DNA from: a bacterium
Lineage (GTDB): Bacteria > Patescibacteriota > Minisyncoccia > JAUYLV01
DNA length: 44,218 nt
NCBI GenBank assembly: GCA_030649025.1
Contig: JAUSGO010000015.1
Span: forward strand, 1-44,218
Direction: 5' to 3'
The notes under the pieces are model-generated. The model saw nothing but the letters and a program-made list of their open reading frames with translations, was not told the origin of the DNA and did no database searches. Both the position numbers and the translations under genes were made by a program. This document shows positions 23,591 to 31,500 of the stretch, piece by piece (position 1 is the stretch's first letter; each line of letters opens with the position of its first letter).

Positions 23591-23634
23591 TTGACGAAAT
23601 TTCTTGGCAAGAATAGTATGTGTATATAATACAC
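23591..23634 (+). promoter_or_regulatory. nrtR promoter with a 15-bp palindromic operator candidate
   Basis: TTGACG (23591-23596), 17-bp spacer, TAGTAT (23614-23619); an overlapping second -10, TATAAT (23625-23630), lies inside the palindrome GTGTAT-ATA-ATACAC (23620-23634). A regulator bound there would block the -10. NrtR proteins are known to bind palindromes near NAD genes, so autoregulation is a reasonable inference. A partial match, TTGTAATTTAATAC, lies about 24371-24384 upstream of the pncA promoter. Confidence 0.5.
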
Positions 23635-23656
23635 TAAGTAGATTCCCACTACTCAA

Positions 23657-24361
23657 ATGCCCCATAAGAAAGCCAATTTTCATAATACCGCGCATGCGCT
23701 TCATGCAACGCAGCGCATATGCGTCGCTGTGGACAATTGTATTTTCACCGTCCAGGGCAATAAGCTTCTCGTTCTGCTTATTCAGATGAGAAAGAAGCCC
23801 TTCGAGGACATGTGGGCGCTCCCGGGCGGGCTTATCCGCAACAGCGAGAATCTGGACGATGCGGCGTTGCGTATTTTAAAAGAAGAAACGACATTATCCA
23901 ACGTATACCTTGAACAGCTCTATACGTTCGGTAAGCCCCGCCGCGACCCTTTCGGCCGCGTCACCTCCACGGCATATCTTGCGCTCATCCCCTCCCGAGA
24001 CGTAACGCTCCGCACCATTCCAAAATATGCCGATGTGCGCTGGTGGGATTTCTCGCGCCTTCCGAGACTTGCCTATGACCACGATCAAATCGTTGCATAC
24101 GCAAAAAAACGCTTGGTGTGGAAGTTAGAATATACGAATATCGCTTGGTCTCTCCTTCCAAAAAAATTCACTCTTACCGAACTTCAGCGGGTGTATGAAG
24201 CCATCTTGGGAAAAAAACTTGATAAGCGGAATTTCAGAAAAAAAATTTTGATAATAGGGCTTGTGAAGAGCGTAGGAGCATACGCCGTACGTGGCGCATA
24301 CCGCCCGGCAATGTTATATCGTTTTATCTCCCGAAAACCGAAGATTCTTGAGATTCTGTAG
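23657..24361 (+). CDS. nrtR: NrtR-type regulator of NAD metabolism (Nudix plus winged helix)
   Basis: 234 aa. The N-terminal Nudix-like domain (about 18-140) keeps part of the Nudix box, GLIRNSE...RILKEETTL, but the Glu after the Arg is Ile and the conserved Gly is Thr, so catalysis is doubtful; degenerate boxes are usual in NrtR, which uses the domain to sense ADP-ribose or related metabolites. The C-terminal DNA-binding domain has the family signature LAYDHDQIVAYAKKRLVWKLEY...LLPKKFTLTELQRVYEAILGKKLDKRNFRKKIL. The gene heads an island of NAD salvage and ADP-ribose genes, fitting a local regulator. ATG 23657 has no Shine-Dalgarno and lies about 20 nt after the predicted start site. The palindrome at 23620-23634 is a candidate operator. 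Confidence 0.88.
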   Translation: MPHKKANFHNTAHALHATQRICVAVDNCIFTVQGNKLLVLLIQMRKKPFEDMWALPGGLIRNSENLDDAALRILKEETTLSNVYLEQLYTFGKPRRDPFGRVTSTAYLALIPSRDVTLRTIPKYADVRWWDFSRLPRLAYDHDQIVAYAKKRLVWKLEYTNIAWSLLPKKFTLTELQRVYEAILGKKLDKRNFRKKILIIGLVKSVGAYAVRGAYRPAMLYRFISRKPKILEIL

Positions 24362-24407
24362 TATAGTTCTTTGTAATTTAATACCTATATTAAGAAGGTG
24401 TTTGAAT

Positions 24408-24436
24408 TTGACTTTTAAAGGAGAACTTGCTATATT
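24408..24436 (+). promoter_or_regulatory. Sigma70-type promoter upstream of pncA
   Basis: TTGACT (24408-24413), 17-bp spacer, TATATT (24431-24436); predicted start near 24443, leader about 57 nt. Just upstream is TTAATA-ccta-TATTAA (about 24377-24392). It is the only good promoter I can see before the run of genes from pncA to pncB. Confidence 0.65.
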
Positions 24437-24465
24437 TTTTAGTCGCTTTATTGTGGAATTTTGGC

Positions 24466-24475
24466 CAGTACCTTA
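24466..24475 (+). promoter_or_regulatory. CAGTACCTTA box in the pncA leader
   Basis: It matches the conserved 3' end (GUACCUUU) of the RNA motifs at 25317, 26816 and 28781, in the same place relative to a start codon. The flanking stems of those motifs are not evident here; the short leader offers only AGUC (24441) against GACU in the Shine-Dalgarno region GGAGACU (24491). It may be a reduced copy or chance. Confidence 0.35.
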
Positions 24476-24499
24476 AATTTTTTGAGAAATGGAGACTGT

Positions 24500-25246
24500 A
24501 TGGATTCGTACATCATGGAACGGCTTAAAGAAGCTGTCCCGCTTAATATCGTCCCGCAGTACGACTTGGCGGGTAAATGTGCGGGCCTTGTCATCATCGA
24601 CGAGGTGAATGGCTTCTGTACGGTCGGCGCGGGAAACCTTGCGCCGCAGATTGCAGACGCGTCTATCGATGTAATGGTGTCGAAAACCGTTGCGGTGGCA
24701 AGGGAAGGATTCGGAAAAAGAGATCTTCCGATCCTTGCCTTTGAAGATACGCATGAGCCCGGCGTTCCCGAGCCACCCTATCCGCCGCATTGTGAACGCG
24801 GAACGGGTGAGGAAATCCTTGTCCCGGGACTGCAATGGCTTTACAGCTATAGCTCCAATCACCTGCAGAAGGATTGCATCAATGGATTCGTTGGGGGCAT
24901 TCGGGAGGATGGAAGCAATGTGGTAGCGGATTTCGTAAACCGAGAGCACATTGAGACGCTCGTGATTACCGGCATCTGCACGGACATCTGCGTTCTTGAC
25001 TTCGTGGTCACCATGCTCTCGGCACGCAATCACCGTTTTCCTTGCCGCGATTACGGACTCATGCCGACGCTCAAGAACATTGTTGTACTTGTTCCGGCAT
25101 GTGCGACATACGACTTACCGATTAAGACGGCTATCGCAGTCGGACTTCCGGAATTTGCGGCGCATCCGCGGGAGCTCACACACTACATGGGGCTCTACTT
25201 CATGGCCTCGCGTGGGGCTATCTTGGCAAACGACCTCATATTCTGA
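24500..25246 (+). CDS. pncA: Nicotinamidase, resembling plant-type NIC enzymes
   Basis: Isochorismatase-fold amidohydrolase converting nicotinamide to nicotinate, the first step of Preiss-Handler salvage. Seen in 248 aa: catalytic Asp in GLVIIDEVNGFCTVGAGNLAP (about 35), DTHEPGVPEPPYPPHCERGTGEE with metal-binding candidates, catalytic Lys in LQKDCINGFVG (about 123), and nucleophile Cys in VITGICTDICVLDFVVTMLSARNH. The wording of these blocks, and HPRELTHYMGLY near the end, recall the Arabidopsis NIC family more than E. coli or mycobacterial PncA; this is from memory of family motifs. ATG 24500 is chosen because GGAGA lies five bases upstream; a TTG at 24461 would place the leader in the protein. 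It is followed by a terminator and the first RNA motif. Confidence 0.88.
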   Translation: MDSYIMERLKEAVPLNIVPQYDLAGKCAGLVIIDEVNGFCTVGAGNLAPQIADASIDVMVSKTVAVAREGFGKRDLPILAFEDTHEPGVPEPPYPPHCERGTGEEILVPGLQWLYSYSSNHLQKDCINGFVGGIREDGSNVVADFVNREHIETLVITGICTDICVLDFVVTMLSARNHRFPCRDYGLMPTLKNIVVLVPACATYDLPIKTAIAVGLPEFAAHPRELTHYMGLYFMASRGAILANDLIF

Positions 25247-25264
25247 TGTTCTTTGGAATCAAGG

Positions 25265-25311
25265 GGAGAGGAGGGTGAACAACGTATCACACTCCTCTCC
25301 GGACTTTTTTT
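25265..25311 (+). terminator. Intrinsic terminator between pncA and nadD
   Basis: GGAGAGGAG...CTCCTCTCC with inner GTG/CAC pairing, then GGAC and seven T. It starts 18 bp after the pncA stop and ends six bases before the RNA motif at 25317. There is no room for a promoter between it and that motif. Confidence 0.8.
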
Positions 25312-25316
25312 GAAAT

Positions 25317-25387
25317 AGAGAATTGTAACTGATGGAAGGCATCGGCTTTGATTCTCTGTCTCAAATCAAGCGAGACAGCGTACCTTT
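25317..25387 (+). ncRNA. NAD-island leader RNA motif, copy 1 (before nadD-nadK)
   Basis: P1 AGAGAA (25317-25322)/UUCUCU (25352-25357); P2 CUGAUG-gaagg-CAUCGG (25329-25345); P3 GUCUC-(9 nt)-GAGAC (25358-25376); then AG, CG and UACCUUU. P3 can extend to CUGUCUC/GAGACAG at the expense of P1, which would make P1 and P3 partly exclusive. It is 21 nt before the nadD ATG and its ribosome site GGAG. The other copies are at 26816-26966 and 28781-28862. Structure by eye; no match to a known riboswitch recalled. Confidence 0.65.
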
Positions 25388-25408
25388 TTAACATATCTTA
25401 GGAGACAT

Positions 25409-26008
25409 ATGCCAAAAAATATTGTATTGTTTGGCGGAAGTTTGCATCCTCCTGGAAAGCACCACGTTGAGATCGTCCGTACCCTTATTCCCTACTTCGA
25501 CGAGGTAATCATCTTTCCCTGCGGTTCTGCTCGACGCGACAAGCCCTCTTTGGACGAGGTAAGCAATGAGGACCGTGCCGTAATGGTGCGCCTCGCCTTT
25601 GAGGAACTCCCCGTCCGTATTGATCTGTCGGACCTGGAGAGACATATATTCACCCCCACCTGGGACCTTGATGAAAGATTCCACAGAGAAGGCGCAGTGT
25701 GGCATGTTGCGGGCACCGATCTTATTTGCGGCGGAAGACATGGAGAATCGGTCATACAAAGAGAGTGGGTGAATGGAAAAGCTCTTTGGGAAGTATGTAA
25801 TTTCGCGATTATCGTACGACAGAACTATCCATTCGATTCGGATGATCTGCCTCCGCGCCATCGCATATTCGAACCGGAACATTCTGGTTCAAGCTCGCAG
25901 ATCAGGCAACGCATCGCATTCGGCAAGCCGTTTGAGGAACTGGTGGCGCCTGGCGTTGCCGCATACATCAAAAGGCATGGTCTTTACGGCTGGAAGGAGA
26001 GGCTATGA
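25409..26008 (+). CDS. nadD: Nicotinate-nucleotide adenylyltransferase (NadD-like)
   Basis: Joins ATP and nicotinate mononucleotide to make deamido-NAD. Seen in 199 aa: N-terminal IVLFGGSLHPPGKHHVEIVRTL, which corresponds to the GGSFDPxHxGH nucleotidyltransferase signature but is altered: the first His of HxGH is Gly and the His residues are shifted (PPGKHH). The C-terminal SSSQIRQRI matches the ISSTxIR ATP-binding motif, followed by VAAYIKRHGLYG, typical of NadD ends. Length is normal. The Shine-Dalgarno GGAG is seven bases before ATG. The nadD stop overlaps the nadK start by four bases (ATGA). The island context supports NadD; the altered motif leaves some doubt about rate or specificity. 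Confidence 0.85.
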   Translation: MPKNIVLFGGSLHPPGKHHVEIVRTLIPYFDEVIIFPCGSARRDKPSLDEVSNEDRAVMVRLAFEELPVRIDLSDLERHIFTPTWDLDERFHREGAVWHVAGTDLICGGRHGESVIQREWVNGKALWEVCNFAIIVRQNYPFDSDDLPPRHRIFEPEHSGSSSQIRQRIAFGKPFEELVAPGVAAYIKRHGLYGWKERL

Positions 26009-26754
26009 AATACCATTTTTACTTTCCGAAAAATCCGCTTGATCGCAGAGCAGACGATGTGAAGGGGTGGATAGAATTCTGGAAGAATGACGTGCTCGCT
26101 CAAGACCCAAAAGACGCCGACGTCCTGGTGATTGCGGGCGGGGATGGAACGCTGCTTGACGCTATCCACGAATTGCAAAAATTCGGAAAACCGTTCTTTG
26201 GCATCGGACGTGGAACGAAAAACTACCTACTCAATGAGATCAGGAATCCAAACAACATTCCGCGAAAACTTTCCGATTGCGTCCCCATCGCACTGTCCTT
26301 GATCGCCGTAACATTTCATACGCAGGCCGGGGATATGAAACGTCTGGCGTTCAACGACGTGTACGTGAAATCGAGAAAGTATAGCGGCGTGGCCAGAATG
26401 ACCATTCGGACGGAATTTGACGGGGTGTTCGAGGCGGAGGGAGACGGCATCATCGTCGCATCTCCCCAGGGCAGTACCGCCTACACGAACGCCGCAGGTG
26501 GGGCGATTTTGCCCCTCGAGAGCAGCGAAGGTCATAACAATTGGGCGCTGACGGGCATCGTGCTTATGAGTTCCTCGCTCCGGCATGTCATCAGGGAACA
26601 GCGCATCCATATGGATTTCCAGTATCCCGTGGTGGGCATTGCGGACAATGAAGAAGTCGACGGAGTCACGTCGCTCGATATCGAACCATCCGCCGAGAAA
26701 GCGATCATTCTCTTTCTGCCCAACGAGGCATTCAGAGAGCGGCGCAGGAAATAG
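26005..26754 (+). CDS. nadK: NAD kinase
   Basis: Phosphorylates NAD to NADP with ATP. Seen in 249 aa: GGDGTLLDAIHEL (about 47-59), the conserved catalytic motif; FFGIGRGTKNYLLNE; FNDVYVKS (the NE/D motif); EGDGIIVASPQGSTAYTNAAGGAILPL, the family signature; and VVGIADNEEVDGV near the end. Length is at the short end of bacterial NadK. ATGA overlap with nadD indicates translational coupling, so deamido-NAD synthesis and NADP formation share one mRNA segment. A terminator follows 11 bp after the stop. Confidence 0.93.
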   Translation: MKYHFYFPKNPLDRRADDVKGWIEFWKNDVLAQDPKDADVLVIAGGDGTLLDAIHELQKFGKPFFGIGRGTKNYLLNEIRNPNNIPRKLSDCVPIALSLIAVTFHTQAGDMKRLAFNDVYVKSRKYSGVARMTIRTEFDGVFEAEGDGIIVASPQGSTAYTNAAGGAILPLESSEGHNNWALTGIVLMSSSLRHVIREQRIHMDFQYPVVGIADNEEVDGVTSLDIEPSAEKAIILFLPNEAFRERRRK

Positions 26755-26765
26755 GAGGCGCAACG

Positions 26766-26808
26766 CGGATAGGAGTTGTTTTAAGACAACTCCTATCCGG
26801 ATCTTTTT
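26766..26808 (+). terminator. Intrinsic terminator after nadK
   Basis: CGGATAGGAGTTGT-tttaag-ACAACTCCTATCCG, a 14-bp perfect stem followed by GATCTTTTT. It ends seven bases before RNA motif copy 2. Confidence 0.85.
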
Positions 26809-26815
26809 CCAAACC

Positions 26816-26966
26816 AGAGACCTTGAGCGAGCACGCATCGCTCAAAATCTCTGTCTTGGAGACCCCGCTAGAACGGGTACTTCACAATCAGTTGATCGGA
26901 ATATAACACTCCCGTCAACCATTTATGGAGATGTTCTAACGGGATAAACGAGACAGCAGTACCTTT
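26816..26966 (+). ncRNA. NAD-island leader RNA motif, copy 2, interrupted by a repeat element
   Basis: P1 AGAGA (26816-26820)/UCUCU (26848-26852); P2 GAGCGA-gcacgca-UCGCUC (26825-26843); P3 5' strand GUCUU (26853-26857) and 3' strand GAGAC (26950-26954), then AG, CA and GUACCUUU (26959-26966). The P3 loop holds an 84-bp inverted-repeat element (26862-26945); without it the loop would be eight nt, against nine in copy 1. UACCUU can pair with GAGGUA in the Shine-Dalgarno region before 27027. Confidence 0.6.
26862..26945. mobile_element. Small inverted-repeat element in the P3 loop of RNA motif copy 2
   Basis: Left arm ACCCCGCTAGAAC (26862-26874), right arm GTTCTAACGGGAT (26933-26945), 11 of 13 matching; same family as the elements at 19805 and 20678, shorter and more diverged. 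No coding capacity. Exact removal restores a compact hairpin loop in the host RNA. Confidence 0.6.
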
Positions 26967-27026
26967 ACTACAAAGTCTACAGTTGTCGAATAAGCCGTTT
27001 TGAGAGCGGCGAGGGAGGTAACAGAC

Positions 27027-27632
27027 ATGAGCAGAAGATCAGGAACGGTGAATATCGAATCGGAGCGCTTGCTTCTGCGTCCGGCGGTTCCAGATGATGC
27101 GAAAGACATCGTAAACGCTATTCATGCGTCCGACCTGCAGAACTTTTCATTCTTCAGGAAATCGCTAACGCTCAAGCGAGAACGAAAGTATTTGGAAAAA
27201 ATAATGGAGAGCCCATCGGACTTGCTCTACATCATATTCCGCAAAGAAGACGAAAGGCTTATCGGTTCCATAGGTATGCACGACATGGACATGGTAAACC
27301 GCAACGCGCGGCTGGGTATCTCCCTCTTCTCCAAGGAAAACTGGGGCAATGGATATGCGAGCGAGGCTCTTCGATCTTTCGTTCGATTCGTGTTCAATGT
27401 CTCACTCAATTATTCTGGAGATACGAGGTTTCGTAAACTGCATCTCAACGTTTTTGTCGAGAATAAGCGGGCACAAAAGCGTTATACGGCACTCGGTTTC
27501 CGGAAAGACGGGGTACTGCGTAGCCACTACCTGCTGACGGACAAGAATGGTAACGAAGAGTGGCACGACATGGTGCACATGTCATTGTTGCGAAGTGAGT
27601 GGGAGCTTGCCCAACAGAAAGGAGCCGCATGA
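27027..27632 (+). CDS. GNAT-family N-acetyltransferase (RimJ/RimL-like)
   Basis: 201 aa. Seen: IESERLLLRPAVPDDAKDIVNAI at the start (typical RimJ/RimL/SpeG-type opening), ERLIGSIGMHDMDMVNRNARLGISLFSKENWGNGYASEALRSFVRFVF holding the acetyl-CoA pyrophosphate loop (motif A, GNGYASEA), and LHLNVFVENKRAQKRYTALGFRKDGVLRSHYLLTDKNGNEEWHDMVHMSLL, the classic motif B region. Acceptor unknown. ATG 27027 follows GGGAGG; the in-frame TTG at 27000 is rejected. The stop overlaps the ATG of the ADP-ribosylglycohydrolase gene (ATGA), so the two are coupled. Its place in an NAD island is unusual and could point to acetylation of a nucleotide-metabolism protein or a small molecule; this is only inference. Confidence 0.88.
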   Translation: MSRRSGTVNIESERLLLRPAVPDDAKDIVNAIHASDLQNFSFFRKSLTLKRERKYLEKIMESPSDLLYIIFRKEDERLIGSIGMHDMDMVNRNARLGISLFSKENWGNGYASEALRSFVRFVFNVSLNYSGDTRFRKLHLNVFVENKRAQKRYTALGFRKDGVLRSHYLLTDKNGNEEWHDMVHMSLLRSEWELAQQKGAA

Positions 27633-28705
27633 ACAAACCAACTCTGCTTTCAAGAATCCAAGGATGTCTTCTCGGTGTCAGAATCGGGGACGCCATGGGC
27701 GTCCCGTGGGAGATGTACGCCCGAGACCAGATCATGGAAGAGACCGGCGGCAAGGGCGTAACCGGATTCCAAAACTCCAAAAACCGCCGTTTCGAGGAGA
27801 TGAGGGACTTGGCGCTTGGCGAAATATCGGATGATACGATTTTTACCGATGTTGTTGTGCGCTCGCTCATCCGATGCAAGGGGTTCGATCTTGGGGACTC
27901 TGCAAGAGAGCATCTAGCCGCATTTGAAGGACCGATATTCGGAATGGGTCGCGCAACAAGATCGGGACTGCAAAGCCTCAAAGAAGGCCGCGATCCCTTA
28001 ACACCCGCGCCGGACATGAAGCCGGGGAAGGGAAGCGGCAATGGCGTCATTATGAAAGTATCGGGACTTGCGCTCTTTCATGCCGTTACGCACGGACCTT
28101 TCTCCGACGGATTCAAACGGGAACCGCTTTTTATGCAGGTGATGCAATTAGGGCGCATGACGCATCCGGACCCGAGAGCCTCGCTTGCCGCATATGCGGT
28201 TGCACGTATCATTGCGACGGTATTACATGACCCAGTCCCGTCCCCCGGCGTGTCCCCATCAAAATACGACTGGCATGTGGATGGTTTGCTTGGCGACCTT
28301 GCCCAGGAGATCACACATATCGAGGATGGTCTTATGTACGGCGTTTCCCAATTTTCGGATGATCCGCTCTCGTGGCGACTGGGAAGGCTCTCTGTGGACG
28401 GAGATGCACTTGTGTATGATAGGGAAGCGCTCCGGAAAGAAATAGGTACGGCATGCTTCGCGCTTGAATCAGGGCCCTTTGCTATCGGGACGTTTCTGCT
28501 GAATCCCACGAACTTCAAAAGCGGGGTGCTTGAGGCGATAAACGCGGGCGGGGATACGGATTCCAACGCGTCCATCGTGGGCGCCTTGATAGGCGCAAAC
28601 TGCGGAGCAGAAGCTATCCCCCAAGACTGGATACGCTTTAATCCTAAATTTCAGGAAGCATTCGGGCTCGGTGAAGCGCTCTGCAAAGCGGCTCTGACGA
28701 CATAG
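27629..28705 (+). CDS. ADP-ribosylglycohydrolase family protein (DraG-like)
   Basis: Dinuclear-metal hydrolase expected to remove ADP-ribose from proteins or small ADP-ribosides. Seen in 358 aa: RIQGCLLGVRIGDAMGVPWEMY at the N terminus, the first metal motif ISDDTIFTDVVVRSLI (SDDT, about 65-70), GSGNGVIMKVSGLAL, and the second metal motif AINAGGDTDSNASIVGALIGA (GGDTDS, about 305). All expected metal ligands appear present. ATG 27629 is preceded by AAAGGAG; an earlier TTG lies inside the GNAT gene. Neighbours make and recycle NAD, so a role in returning ADP-ribose to the pool with the Nudix enzyme at 28899 is likely. Confidence 0.9.
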   Translation: MNKPTLLSRIQGCLLGVRIGDAMGVPWEMYARDQIMEETGGKGVTGFQNSKNRRFEEMRDLALGEISDDTIFTDVVVRSLIRCKGFDLGDSAREHLAAFEGPIFGMGRATRSGLQSLKEGRDPLTPAPDMKPGKGSGNGVIMKVSGLALFHAVTHGPFSDGFKREPLFMQVMQLGRMTHPDPRASLAAYAVARIIATVLHDPVPSPGVSPSKYDWHVDGLLGDLAQEITHIEDGLMYGVSQFSDDPLSWRLGRLSVDGDALVYDREALRKEIGTACFALESGPFAIGTFLLNPTNFKSGVLEAINAGGDTDSNASIVGALIGANCGAEAIPQDWIRFNPKFQEAFGLGEALCKAALTT

Positions 28706-28717
28706 TTCTTTACATCA

Positions 28718-28761
28718 TCCGGAGGGGGTTATAATAGGTAATCCCCTTCCGGAAATTTTTT
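28718..28761 (+). terminator. Intrinsic terminator after the ADP-ribosylglycohydrolase gene
   Basis: TCCGGAGGGGG...CCCCTTCCGGA (one G-T pair) followed by AATTTTTT, 13 bp after the stop. It precedes RNA motif copy 3 by about 20 bp. Confidence 0.8.
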
Positions 28762-28780
28762 CCGATACAAATTAGGATAT

Positions 28781-28862
28781 AGAGAATTGTATCCATGCGT
28801 GAATATTTTGATACGCATGGACACAGTTCTCTATCTCCTTTACGGGGATAGAAAGTACCTTT
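28781..28862 (+). ncRNA. NAD-island leader RNA motif, copy 3 (before Nudix-pncB)
   Basis: P1 AGAGAA (28781-28786)/UUCUCU (28827-28832); P2 UCCAUGCGU/ACGCAUGGA (28792-28821), a perfect nine-pair stem unrelated in sequence to the P2 of copies 1 and 2; P3 AUCUCC-uuuac-GGGGAU (28833-28849), with A-U and U-G changes relative to the G-C pairs of copy 1; then AG, AAA and UACCUUU. The P1-P2 internal loop shares UUGUA with copy 1. It is 36 nt before the ATG at 28899. Confidence 0.65.
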
Positions 28863-28898
28863 ATATACCATCTCAGTAATGGGAAACAGGAGCGATTC

Positions 28899-29537
28899 AT
28901 GAAACGAAAAAAAAGAAAATCGCCTAAAATACGGCGGGTGTTCAAGGGGAAACTGCTCAAGGTTTTTGTGAAAAAAGTCAAAATAGGCCACAGGTGGTTC
29001 ACGCGCGAGATCGTGCAAAAGAAAAATGCCGCTGCATTTTTGGTATACGATCCTGCACAAGACGCGGTAGTGCTTGTCTCGCAGATACGCGAAGCAATGA
29101 GAAGCCGGAAAAACCGCAACGGTCTTACCACCGAAGTATCCGCGGGGCATTTGGAGGGCCTGGATATCCGGGCAGACATCGCGCGCGAAGCATCCGAAGA
29201 ACTCGGTGCTTCCATATCCGAAAACCAGATCGTAATGCTCAACAAGGAAGAAATGGTCGCGGTCTCACCCGGCTGGACATCGGAGCTCTTAGCGCTTGCT
29301 TTTATCGAGTTGCGGCCCGGTCAGTTGGACCGTGCGAAGAAAAAATTCGGGTTAGCATGCGAGGGGGAACGCATCACGCGTAAGTTCGTGCCGGTCTCGA
29401 CACTGGAAACGACACCCTTACAGGATTTGAAGACCTTCGCGCTCGTACAGTGGTTCCTGAAAGAACGCGCAAAAAAGCGGAGTCAAGAACTTACCGAAGA
29501 CCTGCGTGCCGTAAGCCGCATGGAAGATAGGTTTTAG
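28899..29537 (+). CDS. Nudix hydrolase, ADP-ribose pyrophosphatase type
   Basis: 212 aa, probably splitting ADP-ribose to AMP and ribose-5-phosphate. Seen: a basic N terminus (MKRKKRKSPKIRR), a beta-rich lead-in, then AAFLVYDPAQDAVVLVSQIREAMRSR and the Nudix box region EVSAGHLEGLDIRADIAREASEELGA, with REASEELGA matching the catalytic helix; the spacing before it is one residue shorter than the consensus. PGWTSELLALAFIEL follows, as in ADPRases, where a Glu in this loop assists catalysis. The C terminus is charged. It precedes pncB by 21 bp with the site AGGAGG between, so they are one unit. It would complete the path from ADP-ribosylated target to ribose phosphate. Confidence 0.87.
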   Translation: MKRKKRKSPKIRRVFKGKLLKVFVKKVKIGHRWFTREIVQKKNAAAFLVYDPAQDAVVLVSQIREAMRSRKNRNGLTTEVSAGHLEGLDIRADIAREASEELGASISENQIVMLNKEEMVAVSPGWTSELLALAFIELRPGQLDRAKKKFGLACEGERITRKFVPVSTLETTPLQDLKTFALVQWFLKERAKKRSQELTEDLRAVSRMEDRF

Positions 29538-29558
29538 AGCAGAAAAAAGGAGGTTTCC

Positions 29559-31181
29559 ATGAATCCGACAAACAATTTGGTAAATCCTTTGTTGACCGAC
29601 CTATACCAGGTCACGATGGCGTATGCCTATTGGAAGAACGGCATGCAGGACGATGAGGCAGTTTTTGATCTTTTCTTCCGCAACTGTCCGTTTGACGGAG
29701 AATTCGCGCTTTTCTCCGGTCTGGAAGAGTCTGTAAAGTTTTTGGGAAGTTATCGGTTCACGGATGAGCATATCGCCTACTTACGTTCAATGCCGGCGCT
29801 AAAAGACTGCGATCAGAAGTTCTTCGAATGGCTAAAGACGGTTGATTGCTCTCGAGTCAGGCTCTATGCGCTGCGCGAAGGTTCGCTTGCCTTCCCGCGC
29901 GTGCCACTCATGCGAGTTGAAGGTCCGCTTGGTATAACCCAGCTTCTGGAAACGACCTTGTTGAATCTCACCAACTACCCGAGTCTTGAGGCAACAAATG
30001 CGGCTCGTTTCCGGATTGCTGCGGACCCGGACAAAACACTACTCGAGTTCGGTCTCCGCCGGGCACAAGGACCGGATGGTGCCATATCAGCCTCCCGGGC
30101 AAGCTATATCGGGGGGTTTGACGGAACAAGCAATGTTCTGGCTGGCGCCTTATTCGGTCTTCCGGTCAAAGGAACCCATGCCCATGCCTACGTTTCATCT
30201 TTTGCTTCAAAAAAGTTCGAGAACATCAAGAACCGCTTCATTTCGGATGCAGTAACGGGCAAGCCGTATAACTTCGTAGATCTCGTTCGGGAATCCCATA
30301 GGCGCGTCTGCGGGATATTCGGGCTTTCCGGAACGAACGAAGGGGAGCTTGCCGCCTTCACCGCCTACGCGCTGGCTTTTCCAAGGGGTTTCCTGGCTTT
30401 AGTCGACACCTACGACACGCTGCGCTCCGGAGTTCCGAATTTCCTTGCAGTGGCCTGGGCGTTGTATGTTTTGGGATATCAGCCCATCGGCATCCGTCTT
30501 GATTCAGGAGATCTGGCGTATTTGTCGAAAGAATCGCGGCGAATGTTCGGGGAGGCCGCTACCGGACTTGCTTCCGTTAATTTTGCCGAACACCTTGTCA
30601 TCGCCGCGTCGAACGACATCACCGAAGAGACTCTGTATGCCCTGAAGGAACAGGGCCACCAGATCAATATCTTTGGGGTTGGCACGCATTTGGTCACTTG
30701 CCAGAAACAGCCTGCCCTAGGCTGCGTCTACAAACTCGTCGAAATGAATGGCGAGCCGTGCATCAAACTTTCCCAAGACCCGGAAAAAATGACGATTCCC
30801 GGAAGAAAAGAAGCCTACCGGCTTCTGGATACGCGCGGAGCACCTATTACGGACCTCCTTATCCGTGTCGGGGAAAAGCCCCCGGAAGCAGGCGCGCGCG
30901 TTCTGTGCCGGCATCCGTTCAACGAGATCAAGCGCATGTATGTAACACCTTCTCGGGTTATACCGCTACACGAGCTCGTATGGGGCGGAGTACTCACCAT
31001 GCCCAACTTGCCGGATCTGGACGCCATCCGCACGTACGCCAAAGAGCAGATTGGGATGTTGCGGGAAGATCATGTCCGACAGCTTAATCCGACACCCTAT
31101 AAGGTATCGGTCAGCGACGGGCTATACCACTTCCTGCACGAACTGCGAGAGCGGGAAGCCCCAATAACGGAAGTTCGCTGA
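29559..31181 (+). CDS. pncB: Nicotinate phosphoribosyltransferase
   Basis: Makes nicotinate mononucleotide from nicotinate and PRPP. Seen in 540 aa: NPLLTDLYQVTMAYAYWKNGM at the start (family N-terminal motif), RVPLMRVEGPLGITQLLETTLLNLTNYPSLEATNAARFR, EFGLRRAQGPDGAISASRASYIGGFDGTSNV, KGTHAHAYV, LVDTYDT, GIRLDSGDLAYLSKESRRMF (PRPP/phosphate-binding core), NDITEETLYAL, FGVGTHLVTC and PALGCVYKLVE. The length is that of the long NAPRT found in animals and plants (about 540-560 aa) rather than the 400-aa E. coli form. The Shine-Dalgarno AGGAGG is ideal. It is the last gene before the terminator at 31195. Confidence 0.95.
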   Translation: MNPTNNLVNPLLTDLYQVTMAYAYWKNGMQDDEAVFDLFFRNCPFDGEFALFSGLEESVKFLGSYRFTDEHIAYLRSMPALKDCDQKFFEWLKTVDCSRVRLYALREGSLAFPRVPLMRVEGPLGITQLLETTLLNLTNYPSLEATNAARFRIAADPDKTLLEFGLRRAQGPDGAISASRASYIGGFDGTSNVLAGALFGLPVKGTHAHAYVSSFASKKFENIKNRFISDAVTGKPYNFVDLVRESHRRVCGIFGLSGTNEGELAAFTAYALAFPRGFLALVDTYDTLRSGVPNFLAVAWALYVLGYQPIGIRLDSGDLAYLSKESRRMFGEAATGLASVNFAEHLVIAASNDITEETLYALKEQGHQINIFGVGTHLVTCQKQPALGCVYKLVEMNGEPCIKLSQDPEKMTIPGRKEAYRLLDTRGAPITDLLIRVGEKPPEAGARVLCRHPFNEIKRMYVTPSRVIPLHELVWGGVLTMPNLPDLDAIRTYAKEQIGMLREDHVRQLNPTPYKVSVSDGLYHFLHELREREAPITEVR

Positions 31182-31281: not shown

Positions 31282-31443
31282 AGGACTGTTGCCGAATAGG
31301 CTTTCAGAGCGAAATTGAAAAATTTTGAGCGAAAATTCGGAAGAGCGAGGCGGCGTATTTGATTAAAATACGGCAACGAGCTATGCCGAATTTGCAGCAA
31401 AAATTTTTCAATTGCAGCTGAATGGTTATTCGGCAACAGTCCT
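31282..31443. mobile_element. 162-bp fold-back element, AGGACTGTTGCCGAATA ends
   Basis: Perfect 17-bp termini (31282-31298 and 31427-31443). The complementarity continues, imperfectly, almost to the centre (ATTGAAAAATTTT and AAATTCGG blocks pair, then GGCGGCGTATTTGATT against TTGCCGTATTTTAATC), so the whole element folds into one long hairpin. Each arm holds a short direct repeat (GAGCGAAA-TT on the left, GCTGCAA-TT on the right). No coding capacity. It lies between the pncB terminator and nadE. A further hairpin, CTCAAGCT/AGCTTGAAG, is at about 31234-31272. Confidence 0.75.
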
Positions 31444-31500
31444 ATAGGTCGTTGAAATCAGAATAAATAGCAGGAGAGAAGAAATAAAGGATGCAAACTT

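Follow-up and report, generated by a model that had tools for sequence, protein, structure and literature searches.

A probable undescribed RNA control element preceding NAD-supply genes in Patescibacteriota

Within a 44,218-nt stretch of DNA from a member of the Patescibacteriota (class Minisyncoccia; assembly GCA_030649025.1, contig JAUSGO010000015.1, positions 1 to 44,218), hereafter the window, three gaps between cistrons of a nicotinamide adenine dinucleotide (NAD) salvage island carry copies of a probable, hitherto undescribed RNA control element for NAD supply. This reading follows from a fold common to the three copies together with the recurrence of the element before NAD genes of distant relatives. 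The element, its recurrence, its helices and the overlap between them are computed results, obtained in following up an original prediction that had been made from the letters of the DNA alone. Patescibacteria have small genomes from which NAD synthesis is often absent, and tuning of NAD by way of a salvage island bears on the host dependence of these bacteria. The element is short, exists in several natural variants and is directly testable.

All three copies lie on the forward strand; on re-reading, their predicted positions are exact, and the identities of the genes they precede agree as well. Copy 1 (25317..25387) precedes nadD-nadK, copy 2 (26816..26966) the genes of a GNAT acetyltransferase and an ADP-ribosylglycohydrolase, and copy 3 (28781..28862) a Nudix gene and pncB. 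The common order is P1 (AGAGAAUUG/CAAUUCUCU), a variable P2, a flush and likewise variable P3, a tail and the ribosome site. Every copy forms an ungapped long hairpin consisting of P1, i.e., AGAGAAUUG and its complement, and a P2 that is paired though unrelated in sequence between copies. In copy 1, P1 (25317-25325/25349-25357, with AGAGA at 25317-25321 and UCUCU at 25353-25357) is followed by P2 (25329-25334/25340-25345), P3 (25356-25362/25372-25378) and the tail GUACCUUU (25380-25387). Copy 2 has P1 at 26816-26820/26848-26852, P2 at 26823-26830/26838-26845, P3 at 26851-26857/26950-26956 and the same tail at 26959-26966; the loop of its P3 holds a structured insert of 81 nt with a long hairpin of its own (26863..26943). 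In copy 3, P1 occupies 28781-28789/28824-28832 (5-nt cores 28781-28785 and 28828-28832), P2 28791-28800/28813-28822, P3 28831-28838/28844-28851 and the tail 28855-28862.

The three island copies are the sole ones in the 1.23-Mb genome: the pattern TCTCTNTCTN{4,110}AGN{1,4}GTACCTT has three matches in the whole of it, which are the three copies, and none in the reversed control. An 8-mer common to all three gaps arises in 0.3% of dinucleotide shuffles, and GTACCTTT is scarce, with 8 occurrences in the 626 kb of the window genome that were sampled, three of them being the copies.

That P2 differs in sequence and yet pairs in each copy, and that each copy contains a P3 helix, had both been claimed beforehand, and both exceed dinucleotide shuffles (p = 0.034, 0.005 and 0.001 for P2 and p = 0.005, 0.001 and 0.001 for P3 in copies 1-3, respectively). 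The claim that P3 can be extended to CUGUCUC/GAGACAG and rival P1 was likewise borne out, as the extended P3 does take the last CU of P1. When fully extended, P3 reads CUGUCUC/GAGACAG in copy 1, CUGUCUU/GAGACAG in copy 2 and CUAUCUCC/GGGGAUAG in copy 3. In almost all members collected in this study, the first two nucleotides of P3 are the CU closing P1, and its last two are AG. Because the base of P3 thereby re-uses this CU, the bases of P1 and P3 compete.

The original prediction overlooked an outer helix, P1a, whose register is alike in all three copies. It is formed by UUUGA/UCAAA in copy 1 (25309-25313/25361-25365, span 25309..25365), UCCAA/UUGGA in copy 2 (26808-26812/26856-26860, span 26808..26860) and AGGA/UCCU in copy 3 (28774-28777/28836-28839, span 28774..28839), and three of its pairs are changed on both sides among the window copies. 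Since P1a takes the strand that forms the 5' arm of P3, the two helices exclude each other in each copy; forcing P3 in place of P1a costs 4.2, 4.4 and 2.3 kcal/mol in copies 1, 2 and 3, respectively. A P1a-type extension rivalling P3 can be read in the sequences of seven members. Two mutually exclusive folds, as expected of a riboswitch, are thus provided by the nucleotides common to P1/P1a and P3. As far as can be read from sequence, this overlap is the anatomy of a switch; the switching itself we infer.

For comparison, NAD islands of relatives from the same class and from others were gathered with NadD as bait, and their gaps were read. The element is clear in six other genomes, namely G424, G590, G533, G572, G050 and G380, the last of which belongs to the window's family, and weaker in G262 and G367; the further copies before NAD genes of related genomes for which the original prediction had suggested looking were therefore found. 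Clear elements precede nudix-pncB in G533 (for example ACAGAGAAUUGAAACUAAAAAUUUGGUUUUAGUUCUCUGUCCCGAAAUUGAGGACAGCGUUCUUUAAACAAAA), nadD in G424, G590, G572 and G050, gnat in G572, and nudix in G050 and G380. Weaker or shorter forms are located before nadD (G262), nadD and pncB (G367) and prs (G424, G380). Shorter relatives composed of P1 and a boxA-like tail, with P3 unclear, were also noticed at L188 (12307-12635 and 13440-13572), in the prs leader of L185 (7290-7406, minus strand) and in the prs leader of L196. Within these islands they precede His-phosphatase and prs genes, and they may represent a second sub-type.

Wider searches were less productive. Pattern searches in 380 genomes of the phylum, IMG/VR and phages yielded chance matches only, and a covariance model built from the window copies (R1) matched the window genome alone across 384 genomes of the class; R1 is too narrow, since the tail and the P1a of the window are lineage-specific. 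With pncB as bait, GTDB contigs gave two distant loci, both without the element. Two isolated hits were set aside: GTACCTT at L102 stands before a LysM-type gene and has no link to NAD, and 14 nt of copy 1 that match the antisense strand of the 23S gene of the window genome (L104) were taken for coincidence because copies 2 and 3 lack the match. Apart from this, the 23S rRNA gene of the window genome contains a group I intron (L104 368-625).

The association with NAD genes was quantified with the P1 pattern AGAGA-N12-90-UCUCU, which was derived from the window and tested outside the window genome. It is present in 6 of 60 NAD leaders versus 1 of 347 other leaders (Fisher p = 5e-5). With a limit of 55 nt, three of the 188 leaders of G050 (321 kb) match, two of which are NAD leaders. 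A second covariance model, R3, was built from a manually trimmed and fitted alignment of ten members. Members in NAD loci score 23-67 bits with R3, those of G533, G050, G424, G590 and G572 reaching 31-67, and the top background score is 13.7 bits in 0.89 Mb of non-island DNA of the window genome (G000) and G050. Held-out matches comprise the leader of the first operon gene in G572 (18.4 bits), the nadD leader of G262 (17.5), the nudix leader of G380 (15.8) and a leader of G590 (14.7); their single scores are modest, and it is their positions that make them convincing. Two further weak matches in nadD loci, L134 (18.7 bits) and L122 (15.7 bits), reveal no recognisable element on reading.

Pairing in the ten members exceeds dinucleotide shuffles with combined p = 6e-12 for P2 and 2e-16 for P3, and with 1e-8 and 1e-11 when the window genome is left out. 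In the ten-member alignment 96.5% of the cells are paired and 11 of 17 pairs are changed on both sides, compared with 35-50% paired cells in slid controls; these counts serve as illustration and not as proof, because the trimming and fitting were manual. Of the covariation originally claimed, the part that stands is the presence of paired helices with changed sequence in ten members, while the pair counts derive from an alignment fitted to the structure.

The tail is located 1-3 nt 3' of P3, near the ribosome site. Its consensus across relatives is GUUCUUU(A/G)NAAA, of which GUACCUUU is the window's own variant. No terminator was found 3' of P3 in the element.

Metabolite-linked leaders are usually marked by a narrow tie to one pathway over several transcription units, and the leader found here, structured and conserved, does keep to a single pathway. 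We see about an even chance that the element is a cis-acting leader RNA of NAD-supply cistrons, forming one family over several classes and being most likely a riboswitch. The nascent RNA would form the P1/P2 hairpin. The CU that terminates the 3' strand of P1 can pair with the closing AG of P3 instead, and in many copies the stretch just 5' of P1 pairs with the 5' strand of P3, giving P1a. The RNA thus has two exclusive folds, one made up of P1a, P1 and P2 and the other of P3 next to a shortened P1-P2. A small molecule that reflects NAD status, i.e., NAD, nicotinamide mononucleotide (NMN), nicotinate, ADP-ribose or phosphoribosyl pyrophosphate (PRPP), would most likely shift the balance between these folds and so set the expression of the next cistron. 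That the switch is in use, what its ligand is and what it puts out, we infer. More tentatively, the element may constitute a third class of NAD-pathway riboswitch, seen so far in this phylum only and present in several copies per genome, in which competition of P1 and P3 for the common CU would set each cistron and the boxA-like tail would take part in the output.

Several observations weigh against a riboswitch. R1 ranks the G533 element first in 365 kb, yet with E = 0.19, and the hand-fitted member alignments bias the pair counts towards structure. The tail reads GUACCUUU in the window but GUUCUUU in the relatives. Few unpaired nucleotides are conserved, most of them in the tail and in a weak UAA/UUC internal loop; most aptamers have more. 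Masking of the ribosome site is not consistent, as pairing between tail and ribosome site does not rise above shuffles in most copies; the pairing of UACCUU with the ribosome site originally proposed for copy 2 is indeed possible, but no better than that of shuffled tails. A helix P4, formed by the 3' strand of P3 with the tail, is unsupported (p = 0.5).

The tail also lends itself to another explanation, unlikely but to be taken seriously, in which a protein, perhaps the Nus complex, binds the leader. A boxA-like tail with P1-P3 as adjacent hairpin would then either give read-through of the terminators, each a hairpin with a U-run, between the cistrons or repress translation, as at the E. coli suhB boxA. 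The tails GUUCUUUAAAC, GUUCUUUACAU and GUUCUUUGAAU of relatives are indeed near the published boxA consensus GYTCTTTAANA (PMC5725501), and terminator-like hairpins are located between the units. However, GUACCUUU in the window does not fit the consensus, boxA-like sites with up to 2 mismatches occur at chance level in the window, and GTTCTTT-type sites are not enriched in the general leaders of G000 (9 versus 9 in the reverse complement). Furthermore, a Nus site alone leaves the restriction to NAD genes unexplained. Next in our ranking, and doubtful too, come intercistronic processing or stability elements: a long operon would be cut in the U-rich spacer, with the 3' ends of the pieces guarded by the upstream hairpin and their 5' ends by P1-P3. 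A promoter scan found just one good promoter in the island, TTGACT-17-TATATT at 24408-24436 (feature span 24408..24474, forward strand) before a nicotinamidase-like gene, and a strong hairpin with a U-run precedes every window copy. These hairpins are GC-rich and on the forward strand; the one just 5' of copy 1 carries U7 after a 4-nt spacer (25265..25311) and may be terminator-like or a 3'-end stabiliser, the one just 5' of copy 2 carries U5 (26766..26808) and the one 5' of copy 3 carries U6 (28720..28760). The succession of hairpin, U-rich spacer and P1/P2/P3 recurs in the islands of G050, G533 and G572. The first hairpins in G262 are without U-runs, so the hairpins between units may act as weak terminators or stabilise 3' ends, which suits processing. 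Against it, the element in G424 and G572 follows a promoter and not an upstream cistron, and generic stabilisers would need no conserved P1 sequence, tail or P1/P3 overlap, nor would they be confined to NAD genes.

Two further explanations appear very improbable to us, both to the same degree. The copies might be DNA operators of the NrtR repressor, whose gene adjoins the island and which regulates NAD genes of other bacteria (PMC6800001). The palindrome TAGTGTA-N5-TACACTA is found at the nrtR promoters of the window and of G262, G367, G270, G253 and others, but at none of the three copies, even with up to 4 mismatches, and operators were rejected as their identity; besides, a P2 and P3 that are variable but paired point to RNA. 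Alternatively, the copies might owe their similarity to chance or to a mobile repeat without function. The islands do harbour mobile inverted repeats, yet the element precedes NAD genes across several families and classes, and its helices have diverged in sequence and are still paired. We retain the NAD-responsive leader RNA as the preferred reading.

The island around the copies is read in the forward direction. The unit downstream of copy 1 spans 25409..26754 (nadD 25409-26008, nadK 26005-26754), that of copy 2 27027..28705, and that of copy 3 28899..31181, with an ADP-ribose pyrophosphatase-like Nudix gene at 28899-29537 and pncB at 29559-31181. Upstream, the NrtR repressor gene (23657-24361) and the NrtR-operator-like palindrome ATGTGTATATAATACACTA at its promoter (23618-23636) form a separate DNA-level control over 23618..24361. 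A weak NrtR-like palindrome with 4 mismatches, TAATTTAATACCTATATTA (24374-24392), is located just upstream of the best island promoter, and directly after this promoter GUACCUU is present at 24468-24474, about 30 nt before the nicotinamidase-like gene and without hairpins. Directly after the stop codons ahead of copies 1 and 3 we noticed GTTCTTTGGAA (25248-25258) and GTTCTTTACAT (28705-28715), respectively; these may be due to chance, and GTTCTTTACAT is identical to the tail of the G590 element. Before nadE lies an imperfect inverted repeat of 163 nt (31282-31444) with arms about 75% alike. About 60 nt of one of its ends match an insert in a NAD-gene gap of G590 (L188 12462-12519) at 78%, which suggests a mobile element similar to miniature inverted-repeat transposable elements (MITEs) that visits NAD islands.

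To our knowledge, only two classes of NAD riboswitch are known, and we found no publication that describes NAD metabolite leader RNAs from this phylum. The Rfam search proposed with the original prediction matched no family: cmscan gave no match at gathering in the whole window and, with E up to 10 on 24300-29000, microRNA-type noise only, and the relatives' islands matched no family either. The NAD+-I riboswitch (nadA motif) resembles the element in that it, too, lies in the leader of NAD genes and has two hairpin domains side by side. It features a ACANCCCC bulge (PMC7297122), whereas no ACANCCCC is present within 5 kb of any copy and the tandem homologous domains are missing. The NAD+-II riboswitch (pnuC motif) is likewise a leader RNA linked to NAD precursors and close to the ribosome site; it is known from streptococcal pnuC genes, where a pseudoknot covers the ribosome site (PMC7749635). 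In the element, by contrast, a hairpin with a flush P3 precedes nadD, nudix-pncB and gnat and not pnuC. The statement made with the original prediction that both motifs differ from the present one is hence correct. The NrtR regulon shares the pathway and the neighbouring gene, but acts by protein-DNA control, and its palindrome is absent at the copies. Sites of the boxA/suhB type can sit in 5' untranslated regions and repress translation (PMC5725501), and the relatives' tail resembles them in sequence, in its place 3' of hairpins and in its nearness to the ribosome site, with the core GUUCUUU present in the elements of G533, G424, G590, G572 and G380. The window tail departs from this type, and the P1/P2/P3 arrangement and the NAD-only association set the element apart, both being without counterpart in boxA sites.

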